Below are positions 15,089 to 26,606 of a DNA stretch of 64,000 bases, piece after piece (within the stretch, counting starts at the first letter, position 1; each line of letters opens with the position of its first letter). Below the pieces are notes generated by a model that saw nothing but the letters and a program-made list of their open reading frames with translations, made no database searches and was not told the DNA's origin. The stretch is from Acidobacteriota bacterium (GTDB taxonomy: Bacteria; Acidobacteriota; Terriglobia; Terriglobales; Acidobacteriaceae): the NCBI GenBank assembly GCA_003225055.1, contig QIAU01000130.1:1-64000 (forward strand), read 5' to 3'. Position numbers and translations under genes: made by a program.

Positions 15089-15541
15089 TCAGGAAGAGAA
15101 ACTCGACGCGCCGCGCTTCGAATAGAGCAACAAGATGGCGGAAAGCAGGGTAATCGTGAAAATGAGGGTTAGGGACGAGAGGCAGAGAATGCACCAGACG
15201 GCCAGGACGAAAGCTTCCACATAGGTGAGATACAGGGCAAATGCCAGGCCTGCCAGAGCGCCCACAAGGAGCATGACCGGCGTTTCGGCCTTCGTTCGAT
15301 AGAGGGTCGCCAACGCCAATAGCGCGAGATATCCGACCACTCCGATCAGGGCTACAGGAACTCCCATCACCACCGAGTACGCGCTGCGGTTGACCACGTC
15401 GCAATTAAAGGTCTCGCCGAAATCGCAGTAGGAGGTCTTGGACTTGGCGTAGTGGTGGGCGAGTGAAACACTCGAGACGGCTATCCCCGCGACTGCGAGC
15501 AGCGCAATCACCCCCAGGATGCGGCGGGAGCGATCGCTCAT
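15089..15541 (-). CDS. Vitamin K epoxide reductase (VKOR) family protein
   Basis: An integral membrane thiol oxidase that reoxidises a periplasmic DsbA/thioredoxin-like partner and passes electrons to quinone. Four or five membrane helices are visible in 150 residues. Both redox pairs of the family are present: the loop cysteines C39 and C47 (YCDFGETFNCDVV) and the membrane CxxC at C117/C120 (WCILC). The Ser/Tyr-containing stretch after the loop (NRSAYS) is also typical. The open frame begins four codons earlier, but the ATG at 15539-15541 overlaps the stop of the upstream thioredoxin-like gene (ATGA). The two are therefore translationally coupled and very likely work as a pair. Confidence 0.9.
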   Translation of the reverse strand: MSDRSRRILGVIALLAVAGIAVSSVSLAHHYAKSKTSYCDFGETFNCDVVNRSAYSVVMGVPVALIGVVGYLALLALATLYRTKAETPVMLLVGALAGLAFALYLTYVEAFVLAVWCILCLSSLTLIFTITLLSAILLLYSKRGASSFSS

Positions 15542-15957
15542 GGCAGGCTGCATCCGGCTTTGTCGCTTATGGCCTCCAGGGGCAGCGTCCCCTCATGCCG
15601 TTCGCCACGAAACTGCCAGGTGGGGAACAGCTTCACCCCGGCATCTTTGCAGCTCGGTTGCTCACCGCGCTGTCCTTTGATGCCACATTCAATGTAGGGC
15701 ACGTATTTGAAGGCGGCCCCGAACATCTCCTTCTGCTCTGCGCAGTGCTCGCACCAGTAAAGCCCGTACATGGTGACATTCTTGCCCGCCAGGCATCTGG
15801 CGAACCCGTCGTAGCGATGCTCGTGCTTGTACTTGGCCGTGAACCCGACGCTGCCGGCCACGACCACGATCACCGCTATGATCGCAATCTTCCTGAGGGG
15901 CAGAGGTTGGGGCTGCTTCTCGCGTTCTTGTTGCCGTCGTCTTCTCGCTTCGGACAT
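15538..15957 (-). CDS. Membrane-anchored thioredoxin-like protein, VKOR partner
   Basis: A 139-residue protein with a charged cytoplasmic N-terminus (1-22), one transmembrane anchor (about 23-41) and a periplasmic thioredoxin-fold domain. The active site is YWCEHC (C69/C72), and a cis-Pro loop is seen at KLFPTWQF. Two more cysteines (YIECGIKG and PSCKDAG) may form a second disulfide. Fused VKOR-thioredoxin proteins are known in other bacteria; here the two parts are separate genes with a four-base overlap. The expected role is disulfide formation in exported proteins. It lies 44 bases downstream of the DAG-kinase-like gene and could be the end of the same transcript. Confidence 0.88.
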   Translation of the reverse strand: MSEARRRRQQEREKQPQPLPLRKIAIIAVIVVVAGSVGFTAKYKHEHRYDGFARCLAGKNVTMYGLYWCEHCAEQKEMFGAAFKYVPYIECGIKGQRGEQPSCKDAGVKLFPTWQFRGERHEGTLPLEAISDKAGCSLP

Positions 15958-16001: not shown

Positions 16002-16904
16002 TTATACTACGACATCCAACGCTGAAGGCAGCACATCGAGAGTCTCACAATGCAAGCTCAGTACTTCGCCGTCCACCATCACGTCGACCGGGCCATCCAA
16101 ATAAAAATCAATTCGACGGACAGCGCGCCGCGACGCCAAGGGATGATTGATGTGGGTTCCGTCGTAGAGGGTCGGCAGATTGCGAATTAGACCCAGCCGC
16201 CCAATCGGCCCCCAGCGAACGTACTCGATGAGACCGTCATTTACTTCCGCTCTGGGTGCAATCATCATTGTGCCGCCGGTGAATTTGCTGTTATTGAACG
16301 TCAGGAATAAACAACGGCGGCGGTCGATCTCAGCTTCACCTTCTGCATGCAAGGGAAACGGGCGACGATCCAGGCGCGCCAGGCAGGTGAAAACGGCCAT
16401 GACATACCCAAGCTGCCCGAGACGATTAAAACGGCGAGCCCGCATGGCGGCGACGTCAGCCGTGAAACCTAAGCTCAGCAAATTAATGTAGTGGAGCACT
16501 CCGCCCTGGTGCCTGAGGCGAAGCACGTCGCAGGGTCGAACTCTTTGAGCCAGCAAAGCTTGAATCGCGTGCTCGACTCCCTGGTCGCTGAAATCCCGCA
16601 GGAACGAGTTTCCCGTGCCGAGAGGTAAGAAGGCGAGTGCCGGTCGGTCCCCGTTCTGGGCGGCCGGGAACAGGCCGTTAACAATCTCGTAAGAGGTGCC
16701 GTCCCCCCCGACCGCCAGAAAACGACGGCATCCGCGGGAATAGGCGTCGCGAGCGAGTTCTGTAGCCTGGCCGGGTGCTCGGGTTTCAACTACCTCGAGC
16801 CGAATGCCGGCGGCGCGGACCTGATCCAGGGCTGGCCCCACCAGTTTGCGGCAGCGCCCGCCGCCAGCAGCCGGATTGACGACCGCCAGCAAGGCGTCGC
16901 TCAC
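16002..16904 (-). CDS. Diacylglycerol/lipid kinase family protein (DAGK catalytic domain)
   Basis: A 300-residue protein of the DagK/YegS/sphingosine-kinase family, which phosphorylates lipid hydroxyls with ATP. Seen: VNPAAGGGR near the N-terminus, the nucleotide-binding AVGGDGT (about residues 63-69), [13 protein letters not shown], the middle block [13 protein letters not shown], and the C-terminal DGEVLSL. The start is a GTG that overlaps the stop of the acyl-AMP ligase (GTGA), so it is coupled to the lipid block. In that context a lipid alcohol or diacylglycerol-like intermediate is the likely substrate. This is inference, since the family also includes kinases of unrelated lipids. Confidence 0.9.
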
Positions 16905-18613
16905 AGCTCCACCACGGCGGAGCTAGGGTCCAGCCGCTTGCGAATTTCCTCCGCCAGCCCAGGACGCCTGATCTTCATCGAAGCGGTGCGGGGGAATTCC
17001 CTGTCCCACAAGACGTAGCCGCCCACTCGCTTGAAATCAGGCAGGCGGCGATTGCGCGCCGCGAGATCGTCGCGAAGGGTTGAGTTGAACTGCTGACTCG
17101 ATTCGGGCCGTAACACGATGATCAGCATCTCGTGCCCAAGGCTCTTTGCCGGCCAGATGTAATGGGCGGCAAGAATGCAGTATTCCTTCACCGGCAAACC
17201 GTCGAAGACGGTCTCAATATCTTCGGGATAGATGTTCTTGCCGCCTTCGGTCACGATCATGTTCTTCTTGCGGCCGAACAGTTGCAGATGCCGGCTGACG
17301 TCAAAGCGTCCGAGATCGCCGGTGAGCAGCCAGCCGTCCACGATGGTCTGCGTGGTGAGCTCGGGATCGTCGAGATAGTGCGACATCACGGTCTTGCTGC
17401 GTACCGCAACTTCGCCGATACCCTCTCGATCAGGGTTGAGAACTCGCAGCTCAACCCCCGGAAGCGGCTTGCCCACCGTGTCCGCACGAAACGGTTTGAA
17501 GTCGTTCAGGGTGAGAGCCGTGCCCGCCTCGGTCAGTCCATAACCGTTCGCCACGGGGATTCCGAGGTCGTAAAAGAACTGCAGGGTTGAAGGCTCGATA
17601 AACGCCCCTCCCGTAAACATTGCGCGCAATTGCCCGCCGAAAGCGCTATGAACCTGCGGTAAAAGTATTCGGCTGAGCCCTACCCGGGCGCGTCTGCGTG
17701 TTAGCAGCCGGTTCAGGCTGACCAGACGATTCAGCAGAAATCTTCTCGACTTCGGCAGTTCTTCGAACTTTGCCCTCAACCCGCGCTCCAGATTCTTGAG
17801 GACCATCGGAACCAGGCTCATGTAGGTGATCTTGTAGCGCGTAAACGCGTCGCGTACGTACTCCGGCCGCAGGGTGCGCAGGTGAACTACACACGCCCCG
17901 CAGACAAACGGCCCGATGAACCCCACCATGAAATCAATCGCATGATTAGTGGGCAGGATGCTGAGGTAACGCACGCCCGGCCAAAAAGGATACCAGGCAG
18001 TCAGGGCCCGGCACTGCTCGAGATAATTCTCGTGGGTGAGCACGCACCCCTTGGGACGGCCGCCGGTTCCGGAAGAGTAGACGATCGAGGCAGGGTCTTC
18101 TTTCTGGCGATTGACGAACGTGGGTTCCCCTTTGCGGCGAAACTCTTCCCAACGGTAGGCGCCGGCCAAATCGACTGCTGCCGGAGCTTCGGTAACCAGC
18201 ACCACCTGCATTTTCGCGTTCTTGAACTCGGGCGAATGCATGATGGCTCGCCAGAGGTAGTATTCGACGACCAGGAACTTCGCCTTCGAATGCGCCAACA
18301 GTTCGAGGTGTTCGGCCGCGCTGAGCTTGTAATCGAGCGGAACCACGACGCCGCCGCCGTAGAAAATGGCGTAGGCGGAAACCAGCCATTTCGACTGGTT
18401 GGTCATGATGATCGCCGCCCGGTCGCCCGGGTTGAAGTCCGCATCCTGCAAGGCTCGCAGCAGACGCCGAGCCAGCCCCTTAAAATCCGAGTAGGTGAGC
18501 CGCAACTTCTCGCGGTCGCGATCCGACTCGATGAGGCAAGTCTCGTTAGGCCAGCGATCAAGCGCATCGCGCAGGGCTGCGCCCAGACACGTGTATGGCG
18601 TCAGGTCCAGCAT
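16901..18613 (-). CDS. AMP-binding acyl ligase (ANL superfamily), copy 2
   Basis: Adenylates a carboxylic acid, probably a fatty acid, and transfers it to CoA or to the ACP encoded 82 bases upstream. Core motifs: P-loop [51 protein letters not shown], and a C-terminal catalytic Lys in TASMKIRRP. The 570-residue length is normal. The open frame begins at 18646, but the ATG at 18611-18613 ([11 protein letters not shown]) is the natural family start; the upstream part is repeat sequence. The 3' end overlaps the DAG-kinase-like start by four bases. Acyl-ACP synthetase is as likely as acyl-CoA synthetase because of the ACP neighbour. Confidence 0.92.
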
Positions 18614-18619
18614 GAAATG

Positions 18620-18684
18620 GCTGATTTTTGATGGCTGATTCCACACGGCGCCTTCCGATCAGAAATCAGCAATCAGAAATCAGC
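18620..18684. repeat. AT-rich inverted repeat (21-base arms)
   Basis: Arms at 18620-18640 and 18664-18684 are complementary at 19 of 21 positions and are built from GCTGATT / AATCAGC words. The repeat fills the gap between the ACP gene and the downstream ligase start. Related words occur at 8281-8381. It could form a hairpin in the operon mRNA. Confidence 0.7.
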
Positions 18685-18694
18685 AATAACAATT

Positions 18695-18955
18695 CTACAA
18701 TCTGGCTTGGATTCTGTCGGCCAAGGTTCGGAAGTCGGAAACGCCCTGCAGTTCGTAATCCGGCAGCTCGACGTTGAAGTGATGCTCGAGCCGGGTAAGC
18801 AGGTCGAGGGCTTGCAGGCTGTCAATGCCGAGCGTCTTGAAGAAGTCCTCGTCGGGCGTAAGCTTCTCGCGCGGCACCTTAAAGTGCTTGCAGGCGAGAT
18901 CCAGGATCTGGTTGAGAGTCTGATCAGAACTTTGCATGTTGCTATAGCTTCTCAT
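18695..18955 (-). CDS. Acyl carrier protein
   Basis: An 86-residue ACP with the phosphopantetheine-attachment motif GIDSLQ (Ser46) at the start of helix II, a long helix I and the acidic loop typical of ACPs. It is not in a fab locus but sits between an enoyl-CoA hydratase gene and an acyl-AMP ligase. It is therefore probably a dedicated carrier for this pathway, loaded by one of the two AMP ligases. Two starts are possible: ATG at 18953-18955 (GGGAG immediately upstream, too close) or ATG at 18935-18937 (MQSSDQT). The longer form is given. Confidence 0.93.
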   Translation of the reverse strand: MRSYSNMQSSDQTLNQILDLACKHFKVPREKLTPDEDFFKTLGIDSLQALDLLTRLEHHFNVELPDYELQGVSDFRTLADRIQARL

Positions 18956-18994
18956 CTCCCGGGAGCGGTTGTCATCAAGTTGCCATCAAGTTTG

Positions 18995-19045
18995 TGTGGG
19001 GACGGGTCTTGACGGGTGCGAGCGGGTCAGAGACCCGCCTCCACA
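18995..19045. repeat. REP-like inverted repeat inside lipid operon, copy A
   Basis: Arms at 18995-19009 and 19031-19045 (beginning TGTGGGGACGGGTCT and ending CCTCCACA) are complementary at 13 of 15 positions. A related 54-base sequence lies at 21641-21694. It sits just after the enoyl-CoA hydratase stop and before the ACP start. Confidence 0.65.
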
Positions 19046-19049
19046 AAAG

Positions 19050-19880
19050 TTAAGGCAAATACGGTTGCGCGTCCCGGCTTTCCACGAATTTCTTGAGTCC
19101 CGCTTCTACCGCCGGCTTCCCAAACAACTCGCAAAAAATGTCGATCTCGCGTTTGAGTTCCTCGTACGGAATTGGTTTGATGAACCGCTTGGCCGTAGTC
19201 GAGGTTTGGCGGTCAAACTTCTTGAGCTGCGCGGCAGTGGAACGTGCGATACGCAAGGATTGCCCTTCGGCGACCGTCTGGCTGACCAGCCCAATCGATT
19301 GGGCTTTAGTGACATTGAAGCTGCGGCCGGTAAGCAGCAGATCGCGTACCACGGCGTTGCCCAGATCCCGCTTCAGGCGCGGGATCCCGCCGAAACCGGG
19401 AATCAGGCCCAGGCGCAGCTCGGGGAAGGCAAAGCGAGCCGCCTTGTCGGCGATGATCAGATCGCAAACCAGAGCCAGTTCGAAGCCGCCGCCGAACGTG
19501 ATGCCGTGGACAGCGGCGATGGTGGTTAAGGGTAACGCGTCAAGGCTGTTCATCACCTGGTGGATGCGTTCCAGGAAATCGCGGGTGCCTCGTGCAGCCT
19601 CGGTTTTAGAAACCTTTTGCGAGCCTTCATAAAGTTCGCGCAGGTCAGCTCCAGCGGAGAAACCGGCCTTCATGGTGCTGTAAAGGATCAGAGCATGGGC
19701 GCGGTCGGTCAGCTCTTCCAGGGCGACTACGAACTTCTCCAGTTCCCTCAGCGTGAGCGTGCCGATCTCGTTGGCAGGCGGACGATGTAGAGCAACTTCG
19801 ACCACGCCCTCGCGCAGTTCCCAGCTCAGGGCTTCGCCTTGAAAATTCGCCCTTGTGCCGTCCCTAGGAGACTCGTTCAT
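19050..19880 (-). CDS. Enoyl-CoA hydratase/isomerase family protein
   Basis: A 276-residue crotonase-fold protein. The oxyanion-hole segments are visible as FSAGADLREL (about residues 74-83) and HGITFGGGFELALVCD. The following FAFPELRLGLIPGFGG carries the Glu found at one of the two usual catalytic positions. Crotonases hydrate, isomerise or hydrolyse acyl thioesters. In this operon the substrate may be an acyl-ACP or acyl-CoA on the way to the reductases. The start ATG (19878-19880) gives a short polar leader before the fold. Exact reaction not determinable. Confidence 0.9.
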   Translation of the reverse strand: MNESPRDGTRANFQGEALSWELREGVVEVALHRPPANEIGTLTLRELEKFVVALEELTDRAHALILYSTMKAGFSAGADLRELYEGSQKVSKTEAARGTRDFLERIHQVMNSLDALPLTTIAAVHGITFGGGFELALVCDLIIADKAARFAFPELRLGLIPGFGGIPRLKRDLGNAVVRDLLLTGRSFNVTKAQSIGLVSQTVAEGQSLRIARSTAAQLKKFDRQTSTTAKRFIKPIPYEELKREIDIFCELFGKPAVEAGLKKFVESRDAQPYLP

Positions 19881-19894
19881 CTCTTGCCTTCTTA

Positions 19895-19915
19895 CCCGGC
19901 ACCTCCCGTGCCGGG
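19895..19915. repeat. Perfect 8-bp hairpin upstream of enoyl-CoA hydratase gene
   Basis: CCCGGCAC and GTGCCGGG arms with a five-base loop, in the 96-base gap between the first acyl ligase and the hydratase gene. No U-tract follows on the coding strand, so an mRNA-processing or REP-like element is more likely than a terminator. Confidence 0.5.
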
Positions 19916-19976
19916 CTGTCTGGTGCCGCGCTTCGGCTGGTTTCCGAGCGTGGCTCGCGAACCATTTCCTCTCGGC

Positions 19977-21620
19977 TCACGACGCCTGCCTCGCCTGGTA
20001 CAGAGCTTCGATTTCATTGTGGAGCCGTGCCGAGATCAGCTCGCGCTTCAGCTTGCCGTTCGCGGTCAGCAGGCCGTTCTCGATGCTAAAGGGCTCGCGT
20101 TGAATGTGGAACGCGCGAATCTGTTTGTAATGCGGCAGGTCCAGGTTTACTTCGTCAATCGCCGCCTGGACTTTTTCGGCGGCCACGTCTCCGGTCACGA
20201 TCGCCGATAAGTATCCGCGCCCGTTCCCTACCAGTACTGCTTGCTGGGCGCCCGGGATATGCAGCCGCAGCTTGTCTTCGATCGGCTCAGGGGCGATATT
20301 GTGGCCCGAGCCCAGGATGATCAGGTTCTTGATGCGGCCGATAATGCGCCAATTTCCTGCCTCGTCGACCTCCCCCTGGTCGCCGGTGTGAAACCAACCG
20401 TCGCGCAACGTCTTGGCGGTTTCCTCGGGACGATTCCAATAGCCAGGGAAGATATTCGGGCCGCGCACGATGATTTCGTCGTTCTCTCCCAGCTTCATTT
20501 CGATTCCGCTGATCGCCGGGCCTACGCGGCCGGGCTCTACATGTTGAGGATGATCCAGGGTACAAATCGCCGTGGTCTCGGTGAGACCATAAACCTGCAA
20601 CACCGGAATCCCCAGCATCATGAAAAAAAGTTGGGTCTCAAGATTGAGCGGCGCCGACCCCGAGATCAGCGCTTTCAGATTGGCCCCGATCATCTTCTTG
20701 CGGATCGCGGGAAAGACCGCTGAATTCGCCAGGCCCAACCAGATGGAATCCAACCAGCCTGACCGATGCTCGTGCTTGCGAGTCCAAGCAGCTTTGGCGC
20801 GGCTATAGATCGCCAAGACCAAGCCGCCGGTTTGCCAGAGTTGCTCGTCGACGGCTTTGCGCATTCGCTCCAGCAAGGCAGGGACATTGAGGAAGTAATC
20901 GGGAGCAACCGCGCGCATATCCGCCGCAAGTTTCGAAAGATCGGTATTCAGCGTGAGCAGGCTGCCGCGCAATAGACAAGTCAGCAGCATGATCCAGGAA
21001 CCGGCAAAGCAGAACGGCAAGTAATGAAATACCCGGTCCTGACCTTGCTTCTCGCCTCCCAGCAAGTCGAGCCGCCGGGAGGTGCAGCCCAGCATGTGGC
21101 TGATGTTCCCGGCGTTGAGAACTACGCCCTTACCTTCGCCCCCGCTTCCGGAGGTATAAATGATCGTGATCGGGTCGGAATCGGCGAGTTGGACTGTTGC
21201 CGTTGTCTCCGTTTGCGCCGTAAAGATCTGTTCAAAGAGATATTGGTTTTGTGCTTCCGGCCACGGCTCGATGATTCCCCGACGAAGGCTGTCATCTCCG
21301 CAACAGATGAGCGACGGCGACGAGTCCTTCATCATGGCTACAAGCTCCACCGGAGCTTGGCGGGCATAAAGAGGAACGACGATCAGCCCTTCCGCCATCA
21401 TAGCCAGGTCCATGGCCACCCAGCGGATGCTGTTATGGGCCACGAGAGCGCAGCGGTCGCCTTTCTTCAGACCGCGTGTGGAGAGGAAGCCGCGGGCCTT
21501 GCCGACAAGTTCCAGGAGTTCACGACCTGTGACCGAGATGGTCCGGCCGTCACCAATTTCCCGTAGGACTGGCCTGTCAGTCCTTTGCAAGCCGGCGAAG
21601 ATGTTTTCGAGAAAACTCAT
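19977..21620 (-). CDS. AMP-binding long-chain acyl ligase (ANL superfamily), copy 1
   Basis: A 547-residue acyl-adenylating enzyme. Motifs: P-loop IIYTSGSGGEGKGVVL, YGLTETTAICTLDHP, GWFHTGDQGEVDEAGNW and GRIKNLIILGSGHNIAPEPIE, and a C-terminal TANGKLKRELI containing the catalytic Lys. The P-loop has E-G in place of the usual x-P before the Lys-Gly, a small deviation. The architecture resembles long-chain fatty-acyl-CoA synthetases. The frame is open to 21695, but the ATG at 21618-21620 (MSFLENIF) is preferred, because the upstream part is the REP-like sequence. Together with copy 2 it suggests two different acids, or loading of CoA and ACP separately. Confidence 0.92.
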   Translation of the reverse strand: MSFLENIFAGLQRTDRPVLREIGDGRTISVTGRELLELVGKARGFLSTRGLKKGDRCALVAHNSIRWVAMDLAMMAEGLIVVPLYARQAPVELVAMMKDSSPSLICCGDDSLRRGIIEPWPEAQNQYLFEQIFTAQTETTATVQLADSDPITIIYTSGSGGEGKGVVLNAGNISHMLGCTSRRLDLLGGEKQGQDRVFHYLPFCFAGSWIMLLTCLLRGSLLTLNTDLSKLAADMRAVAPDYFLNVPALLERMRKAVDEQLWQTGGLVLAIYSRAKAAWTRKHEHRSGWLDSIWLGLANSAVFPAIRKKMIGANLKALISGSAPLNLETQLFFMMLGIPVLQVYGLTETTAICTLDHPQHVEPGRVGPAISGIEMKLGENDEIIVRGPNIFPGYWNRPEETAKTLRDGWFHTGDQGEVDEAGNWRIIGRIKNLIILGSGHNIAPEPIEDKLRLHIPGAQQAVLVGNGRGYLSAIVTGDVAAEKVQAAIDEVNLDLPHYKQIRAFHIQREPFSIENGLLTANGKLKRELISARLHNEIEALYQARQAS

Positions 21621-21640
21621 TGAATAAGCAAGAAAGAGCG

Positions 21641-21694
21641 TGTCGGGCCCGGGTCTTTGCCCGGGCGGGGTCGGGTCGGAAACCGGCCTCCCCA
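21641..21694. repeat. REP-like sequence inside lipid operon, copy B
   Basis: A GC-rich element beginning TGTCGGG and ending GGCCTCCCCA that can be aligned with the 51-base element at 18995-19045 over most of its length. It contains CCCGGGTC...GCCCGGG complementarity. It fills the gap between the pyruvyl-transferase-like stop and the acyl-ligase start. Confidence 0.55.
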
Positions 21695-23140
21695 TCAGTT
21701 CGCCACTCGGGCCGGCTCCTCGGTCGCGGACACCTCATATTTCTCCAGCAGCCGATCGAGGTCGGGGCCGAGCGGCGGCAAGTAGTCTTCCCAGCTCCAT
21801 TCTCCATGGCGGAGGGGAAATTCAGGATACCTGCGCTGCAGTTCCTCTTCGAAATACACCCCCATGCGGGCCATCGTCTTAAGATTCTTGGCCACGGTCC
21901 GGCCAATTCCGGTCGCGATCCGGTCGCCTTCGGTCGCCAGTTTCTCGAGTGCGACCACCAACTTATCCTCGAGATCAGGATCGTCGACATTGATCACGAG
22001 ATCGGGGTGACCGCGCTCCCGCATCAGGTTCTGAATGCGCTCATCCATGGTGACACCCGCCGAAGGCACCAGCGCGGGCATCGAGGTCACAATGCCGTGA
22101 TAGCGCGACGAAACCATCCGGTGGCAGGCCCGCAGGATGCTGACGACCTGGTACATGTCATAGTCACCGGAACTGAACACCGGCACGCCCCCGAGCTTTT
22201 CGGAAATGAGGTGGCAGGCGCGAGCATCCAGCCGCTCGGTGGCGACCAGCACGACGAACACCTTGCTCCGTTGGCGGTACGCAGCTACTCCCTTGGCCAT
22301 AGCGGTGAGATAGCGGTCGAAGGCGAGGTCCACCTCAGGCCCGGATTTGTGAAAATAAATCGTGCGATAGTGGCTGTCTCGGTAGGCTCCCGTTGTGCTG
22401 CGCGCCACATATTTCGCCACCGACGGCTTCACCGGCCACCAGAACGGGTTAATGGGACAGACCACCAGAACCGGCGTGCGGCCATTCCAGCCGGCATCGG
22501 TGAGAACCTTCTTTCCGTAGTCAATCGGGAGAGGCTCGAAGGTCCAAGCGGTGTCGGTGCCCAGTTCGGTGGGCACACCGAGCTCGCGCAGAATGTTGCG
22601 GGACTCCACGTTGCGCGTGATGATCAGCGATTTCTTGCAGTAGCGGGCACACATTTTCGCGATCATCGGGTCCATGTGGCCGGCTTCCGAGCCGTAGGCG
22701 ATAGAGAGTTTGTTCTGCGCCGCCGCAATGCCCAGCGAGCCAATCATCATGTTGGTCAGAGCGTTGGCGAACTTACTCTTGAACGCCGATCCCTCGCAGG
22801 CAACGACCCCATGATGCTTCGGTACTTCGCGTGCCAGAAACGGCGGGTAGACATCGGGCAGATGAACCTGGCTTGTGCCATGGAAGTAGCCGCGGGAGAA
22901 ACCGAAATTCTGCGACAGCACACTGAATTCAACTTTATCCGCCCCCAGGATGTGGCGAATCTGTCGCAGCATTTCTTCGACCCGCACATCCGATCCCGTA
23001 TTGCGCGTGCCGTTATAGCCGGCAAACAGGAGTTTCAACTTCTCGCCAGGCTGCCAGGGTTTGCCTTTCCCCAACATCCAGCCTAACTTTGCGCTTTCGA
23101 TCAGGCCACTGACCCAAGCCTCCAAAACAAAGTCCATCAT
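21695..23140 (-). CDS. Polysaccharide pyruvyl transferase family protein
   Basis: A 481-residue protein of the WcaK/AmsJ/CsaB type. Known members move pyruvate from phosphoenolpyruvate onto a sugar as a ketal. Seen: [20 protein letters not shown] near the N-terminus, the C-terminal [19 protein letters not shown] block with the conserved RxHG-type signature (RYHG), and a two-domain GT-B-like layout. The ATG at 23138-23140 overlaps the TGA of the upstream SDR gene and has AGGAGG nine bases before it. Its place between lipid genes suggests that the end product may carry a pyruvylated or otherwise modified headgroup. Family members with other functions exist, so the donor is uncertain. Confidence 0.85.
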
Positions 23141-24273
23141 GCGGCGGAACCTCCTACGGCAGCCGTGGGCCAATCCTGGTACTTGTAGGTGAAATGATTC
23201 TCGCGGCTGAATTTCAACAAGGGATAGCTGTATTGCGAAAACGGAATCGGCTTGCGACCGAGCTCCGTAGTAACTCGGGTGTTATCGAAAACTGTGTTCC
23301 ACACCAGGTACGGCATGAAAACCTTCATTAATGACGCGCCATAGCCAAGCGAACCCTTCCAGTTGGAAAGCACATTTACGGTTGAGGTGAATGGCCTTTC
23401 CAGGCCGGACATGAAGATCGGGCGACGCTGGTTCTGCGCGGCAGCCAGGGATTCGGTGAGCTGGCGAAAAGTCTCGGAGCCGGTCCCGGCGGAAAGATGA
23501 TACGTGTCATGGCGCGGCTGATCTTTCTGGTGAAGGGTTGCAATGGCATCCGCCACGAAGTCCACGTTGACGATGTCCACCTTGTCGTCGGGCCGGAATG
23601 GCAACACTGGCAATCGGGCGAGAAAGGCGAATGCCTTCACCATGTCGAACTGGGTGGTGGCGGCGTAGCGGCTGTCGCCGAGTACAATGCTGGGCCGGAA
23701 CAGGGTGCGTGGAACATCGGGCAGCAGCTGCCGAATCATGTGCTCACAAAACTTTTTCGTGCGGGCGTAGGGATCGTAATCGGATCGTTCCCAGTCGATT
23801 GCCTTGTCTTCCGTCACCACTTCGTTTTCTCGCACTCCGGCGACGGCAACGGTTGAAACATGGCTGATACGGCGCAGCCCATGGTGATTATTCGCATGGA
23901 CTCCCAGCTGTACAACTTCGAGCGTGCCGCGCAGGTTGGTGTTGAGGCAGGTCTTTTCCGACTTGCGATTCAGCGAAGCCGCGCAGTGGACAATCGAATC
24001 GCTGCTGTAGACCAGGCGGCCATATTCTTCATCGCTCAGGCCAAACTGCGATGCGCTCAGATCGCCGCGGAAAATATGGATGCGCGAGCGCAGGTAGCTC
24101 TCAAATTTCGGAAAATCGAGATGCAACTGTAAGGCGCGCCACAGACGCACCTCGGCTTCATGAGCGTCTTTCGCGCGGACCAGAACATTCAGCGGGTCGC
24201 GATAACGTTCCAGCAGATTCGCGGCCACATGGGCCCCGATGTATCCGCTCGATCCGGTCAGGAAAATCGCCAC
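23137..24273 (-). CDS. SDR/thioester-reductase-like NAD(P)-dependent protein
   Basis: A 378-residue extended SDR of the thioester-reductase/NAD-binding_4 (male-sterility) type. The N-terminus carries the Rossmann motif [11 protein letters not shown] (residues 6-16). [10 protein letters not shown] and [11 protein letters not shown] (Y..xK dyad) give the catalytic set, and [10 protein letters not shown] the family's specificity region. Such enzymes reduce carrier-bound acyl thioesters to aldehydes or alcohols. The GTG start has GGAG upstream and overlaps the end of the FAR fusion by 16 bases; the 3' end overlaps the pyruvyl-transferase gene. Nucleotide-sugar epimerase is the alternative reading, weaker because of the lipid neighbours. 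Confidence 0.82.
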
Positions 24274-26606
24274 GTTGCTCCGTTCGTTCCCGTCATCTCG
24301 CCGTCGGTCTCGGTGGCTGGGGAAAGCTGAAAACTGCGCGGCGGCCTGGCTTCCAGCGGCCGGCCTTCGATGAGCGGATAGGTCCAGCGGCGCAGGGCTG
24401 GAATGTGGATGTCAATCCAGTACTCCCACCAGTCGATCGAGCGGGTGTCATAGCCGAACTCGGCCCGCTCCTCTGGAAGCAGGGCGTGCGAGAGGTCCTC
24501 GACATGCTCCGCCACAAAATCATGCTCGTTGTGCAGGATGAAGGGCTCGAAAAGCTCGATGAGTTTCTCGACCTTTTCCAGATTCCGCTCCGCTTTCACC
24601 AGCGGCGGGCGCTTCAGGGGCAGCGGCGCCATGACCCGCTGGATGGACTTGATGATCGCCTTCTGTGCCGGCGCCGACATCCGGTTGTATCGCTCCTTGG
24701 AAACGGGAATCGCGTCAAAGCGGAGGCGCAGCCAATATTCCAGGCTCTCCTGCGCCCGATAGTGCTTGCGGTGGGCGAGCGAGGTTAATTCGATGGAGCG
24801 CCGCATGTCGCAGGGATTTGTGACGGAGGTCGCCAACTGGTACAGCCGGTCGTGGCGGCGCTCGATCACGGCCGCCGCCACCAAAGTCATGCCGCGGCAG
24901 ACTGAGTCCACGGGAATGATGTCGAGGCGCTTGCGCTCATTGCTGGGAAGCTGGCGAAAATAAGTTCCGAGTAAGTAAGAAAGCGAAGCCGAAGTGTTGA
25001 TGCCCTCGTTCCATCCCGGGAAAGGTTTTCGCACCGAAGTCTCAACGATGGCCGGCCGGACAATGGCTACCGGGAGGCCGCTGCTGTATTTTGCGATTAA
25101 TGACTCGGCAAGACTTTTCGTGAAGGTGTAAGTATTTGGCCACCCCAAATCCTGGGCGCGCTTCATGCCGGCTTCGACCAGACGATTGCGCAGCCAGCGA
25201 ATGCGGTTCTTACGGATCTGATTTTCCAGCGCCGTGCCGTGCAGATCCTTGGCGGCGTGTTCCTTGCCCAGCGCCTCGCTGCGCAGCTCAGCGGTGGTCT
25301 CTGGGCTCTCCGCCAGCTTCTCGGCCCCGCGGATCAAATCATGCAGCGCCTGATGCTCGCGTTCGGCGTCGAAGTCAGCAATACCGGCCGGCGTGTAGTT
25401 GGGACGCAGCTTTTCGCTGACCCGTCCATCGCGGGCTCCGGCCACGTAGCAAGTGGAAAGATGGATCAAGCCGGCGTGGTCGGACCTGCGCACAAAATCC
25501 AGGACGTGCATGGCGGCATCGACGTTGGTAGCCAAGGCATCGCGCAGGTCGGGATTAAAGTCGGTCAAGCCGGAGCTGTTGACAACCAGGTCCAGCCGGC
25601 CCCGCAGGCGGGTGGCAATCTCCGGGGACAGTCCGAGCCCCGCCTGGCCCGCATCGCCTTCAACAACGTCCACCCGTTCCGCGAGAAATCGTGCCAGACC
25701 GGCGCCATAGCGCTCATGAAGGGGGTCAAAGACCGGGGATTCCTCGACCATCTTTTCAAAACGCCGCAGCGCGGGATTGGACTTTTGCCGCCGGATGAGC
25801 AGGTAGATTCGGCCGACTTCCGGCAGGTCAGAGAGAAGGTTGACCAGCCAGACCTTTCCTATGAAACCGGTCACGCCAATCAGCATGATGTGCCTGCCCG
25901 TCAGGGTGCTGCGTACCGACAGCGGATGGGGCTGGCGGCGGCTGTCAAAGCGCACAAAGGGACGGTTCAGGACCTGCTTTTGTCGTTCCGCCGGGAAGCT
26001 CGCTCGATTCAGGGCTTCCCTGCCGGCAAAGCCGAGATCACGCACCAGTTGCTCGGGTGAGCGGCGCCCGTTGGGGTCAGCCTCGCTGATCCAGGCAAAA
26101 AGCCCACGGGGACGAATGACCGGAGCGAGCAGGCGTCCGGTCGCAATGCCATCGCGAAACTCGAGCCGATTGGCGATAAACCCGTTGACACCGAGATACT
26201 TGGCCAGCGGGCGCATTACATGGTCCAGCACCTGGCTGACCAGGACCACGCTAGCCCCGGTGTTCACCAGTTCCCGGAGCTGGCGCACGCCCTCCTGTTT
26301 CAGGTAAGGCTTGAGCTTGTACTGGAAGTATTCCTCGCCTAGCAGGTCGAGCCGGTCCCGGCTGACTCCGCGCAAGACAGTATGTACAACTCTGGTGGCA
26401 AGCACGCGATGCAGGCCGTAAAGAATCGGCCGCAATGCCGCCATCAGCAGGACGAGGCCCCGGCGCACCCAGCGCTCGAGAAACGTCTGCGCGTTCCAGG
26501 TGAAAAAGGCGACCGGCTTGACCGTGGTGAGGTCAAGCAGGCTGCCCTCTACGCGCCAATACACACGTGGGGCAAACTGGCCAGAATTGTGAGTTGGCGG
26601 TTGCAA
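24258..26606 (-). CDS. Fatty acyl reductase with N-terminal degenerate HAD domain and FAR C-terminal domain
   Basis: First gene of the lipid block; 782 residues in three parts. (1) Residues about 12-180 resemble HAD-IB phosphatases, with [18 protein letters not shown] and [15 protein letters not shown]. The nucleophile motif DxDxT is replaced (WRVEGSLL), so this part is probably not catalytic. (2) Residues 238-590 are a fatty-acyl-CoA reductase Rossmann domain, with GVTGFIGK (244-251), [14 protein letters not shown] (382-390) and the YTFTK dyad (493-497). (3) Residues about 650-740 look like the FAR_C 'sterile' domain. Alcohol-forming FARs reduce acyl-CoA or acyl-ACP to fatty alcohol. The start is TTG at 26604-26606 (a stop lies two codons upstream); GTG at 26564 is possible. 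Confidence 0.85.

Follow-up and report, generated by a model that had tools for sequence, protein, structure and literature searches.

A conserved eight-gene operon of Acidobacteriota as a candidate pathway for a fatty-alcohol-derived lipid, partly related to elb

We analyzed a window of 64,000 nucleotides from an Acidobacteriota genome (assembly GCA_003225055.1, contig QIAU01000130.1; Terriglobia) and describe an operon of eight minus-strand genes at 16002-26606. It encodes a HAD domain fused to a fatty acyl reductase (HAD-FAR), a thioester-reductase-like protein (TR), a polysaccharide pyruvyl transferase-like protein (PST), two AMP-binding ligases (ANL1 and ANL2), an enoyl-CoA hydratase (ECH), an acyl carrier protein (ACP) and a lipid kinase (DAGK). 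The set very probably converts fatty acids to fatty alcohols that go into a membrane lipid. With moderate confidence, we read the operon as a conserved pathway whose product derives from a fatty alcohol and is most likely an alkyl (ether) glycerolipid of the membrane; the pathway is related to the elb genes of Myxococcus xanthus but differently built. A first-pass annotation of the window had proposed a dedicated lipid operon, which the gene set and its conserved order support; all eight open reading frames (ORFs) were recovered and matched the families it had named.

Conservation and layout of the operon

The eight genes form a real unit and are not a chance assembly. A search of 84,980 species genomes with a PST profile returned 314 relatives, and the best 80 of the 314, examined by record title, all come from Acidobacteriota, mostly Terriglobia. 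Other Acidobacteriota genomes supplied 43 loci over 19 kb in length, and 41 of these show the complete order HADFAR-TR-PST-ANL1-ECH-ACP-ANL2-DAGK; in one of the two exceptions the final four genes run inverted, and in the other they are not nearby. The first-pass annotation had named neighbors not conserved across genomes as grounds for refuting its proposal, and the conservation seen here does not refute it. Among 297 genomes of the phylum, close HAD-FAR homologs (58-71% identity) and strong PST matches occur in exactly the same nine genomes, with weak PST matches only in two more. Where other genes intrude, the kinase is still found downstream of ANL2, at ~8 kb (G291) and ~2.6 kb (G275); the insert between ANL2 and the kinase at locus L056 encodes AAA/DUF4435 proteins and an NTF2-like one, which are not obvious pathway genes. 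Gene order that is kept, with a kinase that still follows despite inserted genes, points to selection on the set. Within alignments of 60-89 sequences per family, the motifs of all operon enzymes other than the HAD domain are conserved.

Many of the genes had been described as overlapping by a few bases. Four of the seven junctions overlap, by 1-37 bases, and the other genes are separated by 48-96 bases. The conserved start of PST is probably residue 12, which would reduce its overlap with TR to 4 bases. The region shows no shift in base composition, and the 7.4 Mb host genome has one copy of the operon. No sigma-70-like site was found upstream of the operon, and an Rfam scan of the window gave no match.

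Table 1. Genes of the operon and the two genes that follow it
Feature	Position	Strand	Evidence
HAD-FAR fusion, 782 aa: ElbB-type HAD pseudo-domain (~residues 15-175), predicted alcohol-forming fatty acyl reductase (~235-760)	24258..26606	-	Pfam HAD + NAD_binding_4 + Sterile; motif loss; tree; fold
TR, thioester-reductase-like extended short-chain dehydrogenase/reductase, 378 aa	23137..24273	-	NAD_binding_4; nearest solved relative MxaA reductase domain
PST, polysaccharide pyruvyl transferase-like GT-B protein, 492 aa	21695..23173	-	PF04230 over cut-off; alignments; model
ANL1, acyl-CoA/ACP ligase-type AMP-binding enzyme, 572 aa	19977..21695	-	PF00501, PF23562
ECH, enoyl-CoA hydratase/crotonase, 276 aa	19050..19880	-	PF00378 (ECH_1)
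ACP, dedicated acyl carrier protein, 86 aa	18695..18955	-	PF00550 (PP-binding)
ANL2, acyl-CoA/ACP ligase-type AMP-binding enzyme, 581 aa	16901..18646	-	PF00501; conservation
DAGK, YegS/DAGK-type lipid kinase, 300 aa	16002..16904	-	PF00781 (DAGK_cat), PF19279 (YegS_C); TIGR00147 over cut-off
Small CxxC (thioredoxin-like) protein; pathway membership unsure	15538..15957	-	Constant position after kinase; no Pfam match
VKOR-family membrane protein; pathway membership unsure	15089..15553	-	PF07884; constant position

Two genes that the first-pass annotation had left unmentioned, encoding a CxxC protein and a VKOR-family protein, lie directly after the kinase in 52 of the 55 loci with room for them, and could form a disulfide pair on the operon transcript. 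Two genomes of one family carry a FabH-like ketoacyl-ACP synthase III gene between ECH and ACP (L055:13716-14714; L056:5642-6628), and another (G662) seemingly holds two HAD-FAR copies on separate contigs (C2 and C65). Elsewhere in the window, the segment 52001-54000 has a strong AT skew (-0.326) across two plus-strand ORFs (497 aa and 439 aa), both of which resemble membrane transporters by sequence.

A fatty acyl reductase fused to a degenerate ElbB-type domain

The FAR part of the fusion retains the Rossmann motif, YxxxK, the FAR_C (Sterile) domain and the FAR fold. Its structure model (mean pLDDT 81.9 over the fusion) matches rice DPW, listed as a fatty acyl-CoA reductase, with a TM-score by target of 0.82, and its NAD_binding_4 + Sterile architecture is that of the alcohol-forming enzymes DPW, FAR1 and FarA, to which HAD-FAR adds the N-terminal HAD pseudo-domain. 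Family domains and fold thus agree with the earlier assignment to the alcohol-forming type, for which an alcohol is the predicted product.

HAD-FAR scores higher with the FARs of ElbD, the multidomain protein of the elb system, than with the solved FAR. In a tree that included TR and ElbE as distant sequences, HAD-FAR forms a single clade (support 100/100) placed with the ElbD and stand-alone elb FARs; the grouping of HAD-FAR with elb has a support of 91/80 and leaves out the ElbDs of four loci (L045, L048, L049 and L050). The HAD half matches ElbB, the HAD phosphohydrolase of the same system. Its motif I reads WRVEGSL (WRAEGSL in one row shown), as against DLEGTL or a close variant in ElbB, so that Arg stands in place of the nucleophile Asp, and DSxSD, the final motif, is missing. 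Because of these losses, the HAD half appears to be a catalytically dead pseudo-phosphatase of the ElbB type, a feature absent from the first-pass annotation. With a FAR that groups with those of ElbD and a HAD half that matches ElbB, the protein is best explained, from sequence comparison, as two elb components joined in one chain.

Predicted activities and competing products

Characteristic motifs are kept in the next three proteins: ANL1 conserves its P-loop and C-terminal Lys, ACP carries the phosphopantetheine Ser in GIDSLQ, and ECH retains both catalytic Glu positions. TR matches TIGR01746 under the cut-off and is nearest to thioester-reductase domains such as that of MxaA; like ANL1 and ACP, it also matches part of carboxylic acid reductase. 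This resemblance to the terminal reductase of MxaA and to carboxylic acid reductase could speak for a specialized small molecule made by a logic like that of nonribosomal peptide and polyketide synthases, in which ligase, ACP and thioester reductase would release an aldehyde or alcohol that FAR, ECH, PST and the kinase tailor; the FabH-like gene inserted at two loci would also fit. We consider such a product improbable, as gene order is near-constant over many genera and several families, unlike in most specialized metabolite clusters, and the lipid kinase and ElbD-family FAR argue for a membrane lipid.

PST had been called a pyruvyl-transferase-like headgroup enzyme. It matches PS_pyruv_trans (PF04230) at 32.8 bits (cut-off 25.3), and shares the GT-B fold and an SSRYHG motif with polysaccharide pyruvyl transferases of this family such as CsaB, although it falls far below the cut-off for CsaB itself (52 of 213 bits) and, unlike these, sits in a lipid operon. 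A PST profile searched against solved structures found no match by sequence. The structure model (mean pLDDT 88.6) matches GT-B enzymes broadly, at low TM-scores, and fits a pyruvyl- or a glycosyltransferase without choosing between them. The family and fold thus stand, and pyruvylation is a tentative reading of the modest family match and the fold. Another genome, G062, encodes a second PST, a 38% paralog, outside the lipid operon, beside a patatin-like gene and near a major facilitator superfamily gene (G062:C148:28490-29827, L164).

The kinase carries DAGK_cat and YegS_C domains and a GGDGT motif. It is weakly similar to sphingosine kinase 1, which would suit a sphingolipid-like or other long-chain-base lipid, the kinase then acting on a long-chain base or a ceramide analog. 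A dedicated ACP with ligases is also typical of sphingolipid-type clusters. Such a product is nevertheless highly unlikely, given that neither the operon nor its near flanks hold a serine palmitoyltransferase-type gene and that bacterial DgkB/YegS proteins are closer relatives of the kinase.

The best kinase relative lies beside or within a few kb of an elb/FAR cluster in six of 11 genomes (G104, G008, G095, G188, G267 and G025), and two more elb-type loci of the class (L178 and L179) also carry a kinase; an AGPAT-like acyltransferase gene adjoins the kinase in two lineages (L058 and L184). In mammals, an alkylglycerol kinase converts dietary alkylglycerol to 1-O-alkyl-glycerol-3-phosphate (PMC9131029). 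Because the same kind of kinase stands beside both systems, we suggest by analogy that phosphorylation of an alkylglycerol-like product may be a step common to the operon and elb.

From the gene set, its conservation, the ancestry of the HAD and FAR parts and the active-site motifs, kept in all but the HAD domain, we infer every reaction of the pathway and its product. ANL1 and ANL2 would activate long-chain acids and load them onto CoA or the dedicated ACP, and TR and FAR would reduce the thioester to an aldehyde or alcohol. A further step would attach the alkyl chain to a glycerol backbone, the kinase would phosphorylate the alkylglycerol-type product, and an acyltransferase encoded elsewhere would acylate it for polar-lipid synthesis. 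PST may decorate the head group or serve the bond-forming step, ECH may tailor the acyl chain, and the HAD domain may be kept for structure or binding. The ether bond is our leading hypothesis and not a result, and a pyruvyl head group is a weaker one still.

Several observations weigh against an elb-like ether-lipid pathway. No ether-forming enzyme and no AGPAT acyltransferase were identified in the operon, and for every host the ether-lipid product is predicted from genes. ElbC was absent from all 14 operon genomes searched, four of which gave partial matches at 28-29%. TR branches apart from ElbE, which is not the best TR match in elb genomes. In vitro work on ElbD detected neither FAR nor acyltransferase activity (PMC9131029), and a review describes how M. 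xanthus gets from fatty acid to alkyl ether as unknown too (PMC9131029). The host also encodes a PlsA/Ger-like protein (PF09989; G000:C114:57517-58206, L169), which could provide a separate route to ethers. The ester-reducing Ger/PlsA route may share its end product, alkyl ether lipids of Acidobacteriota, with the operon, and its enzymes are unrelated to those described here. A search for CarF (PF10520) gave no match, but its control was equally silent, so that the result says nothing on presence.

The operon might make a fatty-alcohol lipid that has no ether bond. Such a product could be a wax-type ester, an alkyl glycoside or a surface glycolipid that carries phosphate or pyruvate and has the alcohol as aglycone; any ethers would then come from the PlsA/Ger-like protein. 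FAR, ligases and ACP are enough for an alcohol, enzymes of the FarA type take part in wax-ester synthesis as well (PMC11948995), PST belongs to a surface-polysaccharide family and has a GT-B fold, and the operon adds no ether-forming enzyme of its own to the host's PlsA/Ger-like protein. We regard this as a real but rather unlikely alternative: the closest FAR relatives sit in elb clusters with ElbB, where the kinase recurs too, a DAG-type kinase would suggest a glycerolipid, and no wax synthase gene was seen beside the operon, the rest of the genome not having been searched for one.

A partial relationship to elb

In M. xanthus, elbD is required for alkyl and vinyl ether lipids (PMC9131029), and ElbD combines FAR, AMP-binding, PP-binding and acyltransferase domains (PMC9131029, PMC9426513). 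Elsewhere in the phylum, HAD-FAR matches proteins of ~1450-1520 aa, one of which was scanned and has these same four parts. Such ElbD-like proteins have as neighbors an ElbB-like HAD gene, a protein of ~531 aa that is conserved and occupies the position of ElbC, and a short-chain dehydrogenase/reductase at that of ElbE. The HAD half of the fusion matches these ElbB genes, and the FAR of ElbD and ElbB are found at one locus in most elb genomes. The Acidobacteriota ElbC (L037:6505-8097 and relatives) matches the lactate racemase N-terminal domain PF09861; the literature calls ElbC unknown.

The operon shares with elb (elbA-E of M. xanthus and its Acidobacteriota homologs) an ElbD-family FAR, an ElbB-type HAD, an ANL ligase and an ACP, and several Acidobacteriota elb clusters adjoin a lipid kinase, as it does. 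In the operon, however, the HAD domain is fused to FAR and apparently dead, ElbC, an ElbE ortholog and AGPAT are lacking, and PST, TR, ANL1, ECH and the kinase, none of which belongs to the published M. xanthus elb operon (PMC9131029), are added. Split elb clusters (L046, L047, L173 and L178) resemble the operon in having a stand-alone FAR unfused to the ligase and, in several, an adjacent DAGK-type kinase; unlike the operon, they carry ElbC, ElbE and an active-looking ElbB and do not encode PST, ECH or TR. The earlier description of the operon as ElbD functions on separate proteins is thus half true. The FAR and HAD relationships hold, and the functions are indeed separate; AGPAT is not among them, the host has ligases more ElbD-like than ANL2, and PST, TR, ECH and ANL1 have no elb counterpart.

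Three candidate equivalences were rejected or found unsupported. TR is not ElbE, by its separate branch and the better matches in elb genomes, and PST is not ElbC, which is a Lar_N-type protein. ANL2 is not supported as the ortholog of the ElbD ligase: its best match in most elb genomes is ElbD, but ANL-ACP-AGPAT-like proteins of the host score higher with ElbD. These two proteins (G000:C71:2611-5208 and C94:29368-31794; L162 and L163) resemble the rear part of ElbD, with ligase, ACP and acyltransferase but no FAR.

We counted FAR types by hand from a table of 399 genomes of the class. A FAR match occurs in 177, of which 118 have HAD-FAR and 59 other FARs, several of them in ElbB/ElbC/ElbE/kinase settings. 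No genome has both types among the matches listed (the second match of G389 lies outside these), and two families (f84 and f93) contain both, in different genomes. The exclusion fits, as weak evidence, alternative systems for a similar job; that it partly follows taxonomy counts against this and adds to the points weighed above.

Overall, the evolutionary link to elb is real but partial, as judged from homology. The first-pass annotation knew of no described operon of this composition, and in open-licence PMC papers we found none on a PST, FAR and ACP set in Acidobacteriota, only elb and Ger work. The operon is elb-related through FAR and HAD, with four enzymes extra to elb and without ElbC, ElbE or a multidomain ElbD.

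Which genes make the ether and branched membrane lipids of soil Acidobacteriota is the question behind the widely used climate proxies based on branched glycerol dialkyl glycerol tetraethers. So far elbD and the Mss/Ger enzymes are the candidates, and ElbD is missing from some of the producers, Solibacter usitatus among them (PMC10087280, PMC13274423). The FAR operon, found in ~30% of the sampled class genomes, gives a fatty-alcohol lipid pathway a concrete candidate. Comparing it with elb brings out a shared core of FAR, ElbB-like HAD, ligase with ACP, and lipid kinase. More tentatively, and with considerable doubt on our part, the operon may be a second, ElbC-independent route to alkyl ether lipids in Terriglobia, possibly membrane-spanning ones of the iso-diabolic type, in which two ligases and two reductases would process two separate chains, or a diacid from each end, and PST would provide a new head group or the bond-forming step. 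If true, such a route would account for Acidobacteriota ether lipids in the absence of elbD.

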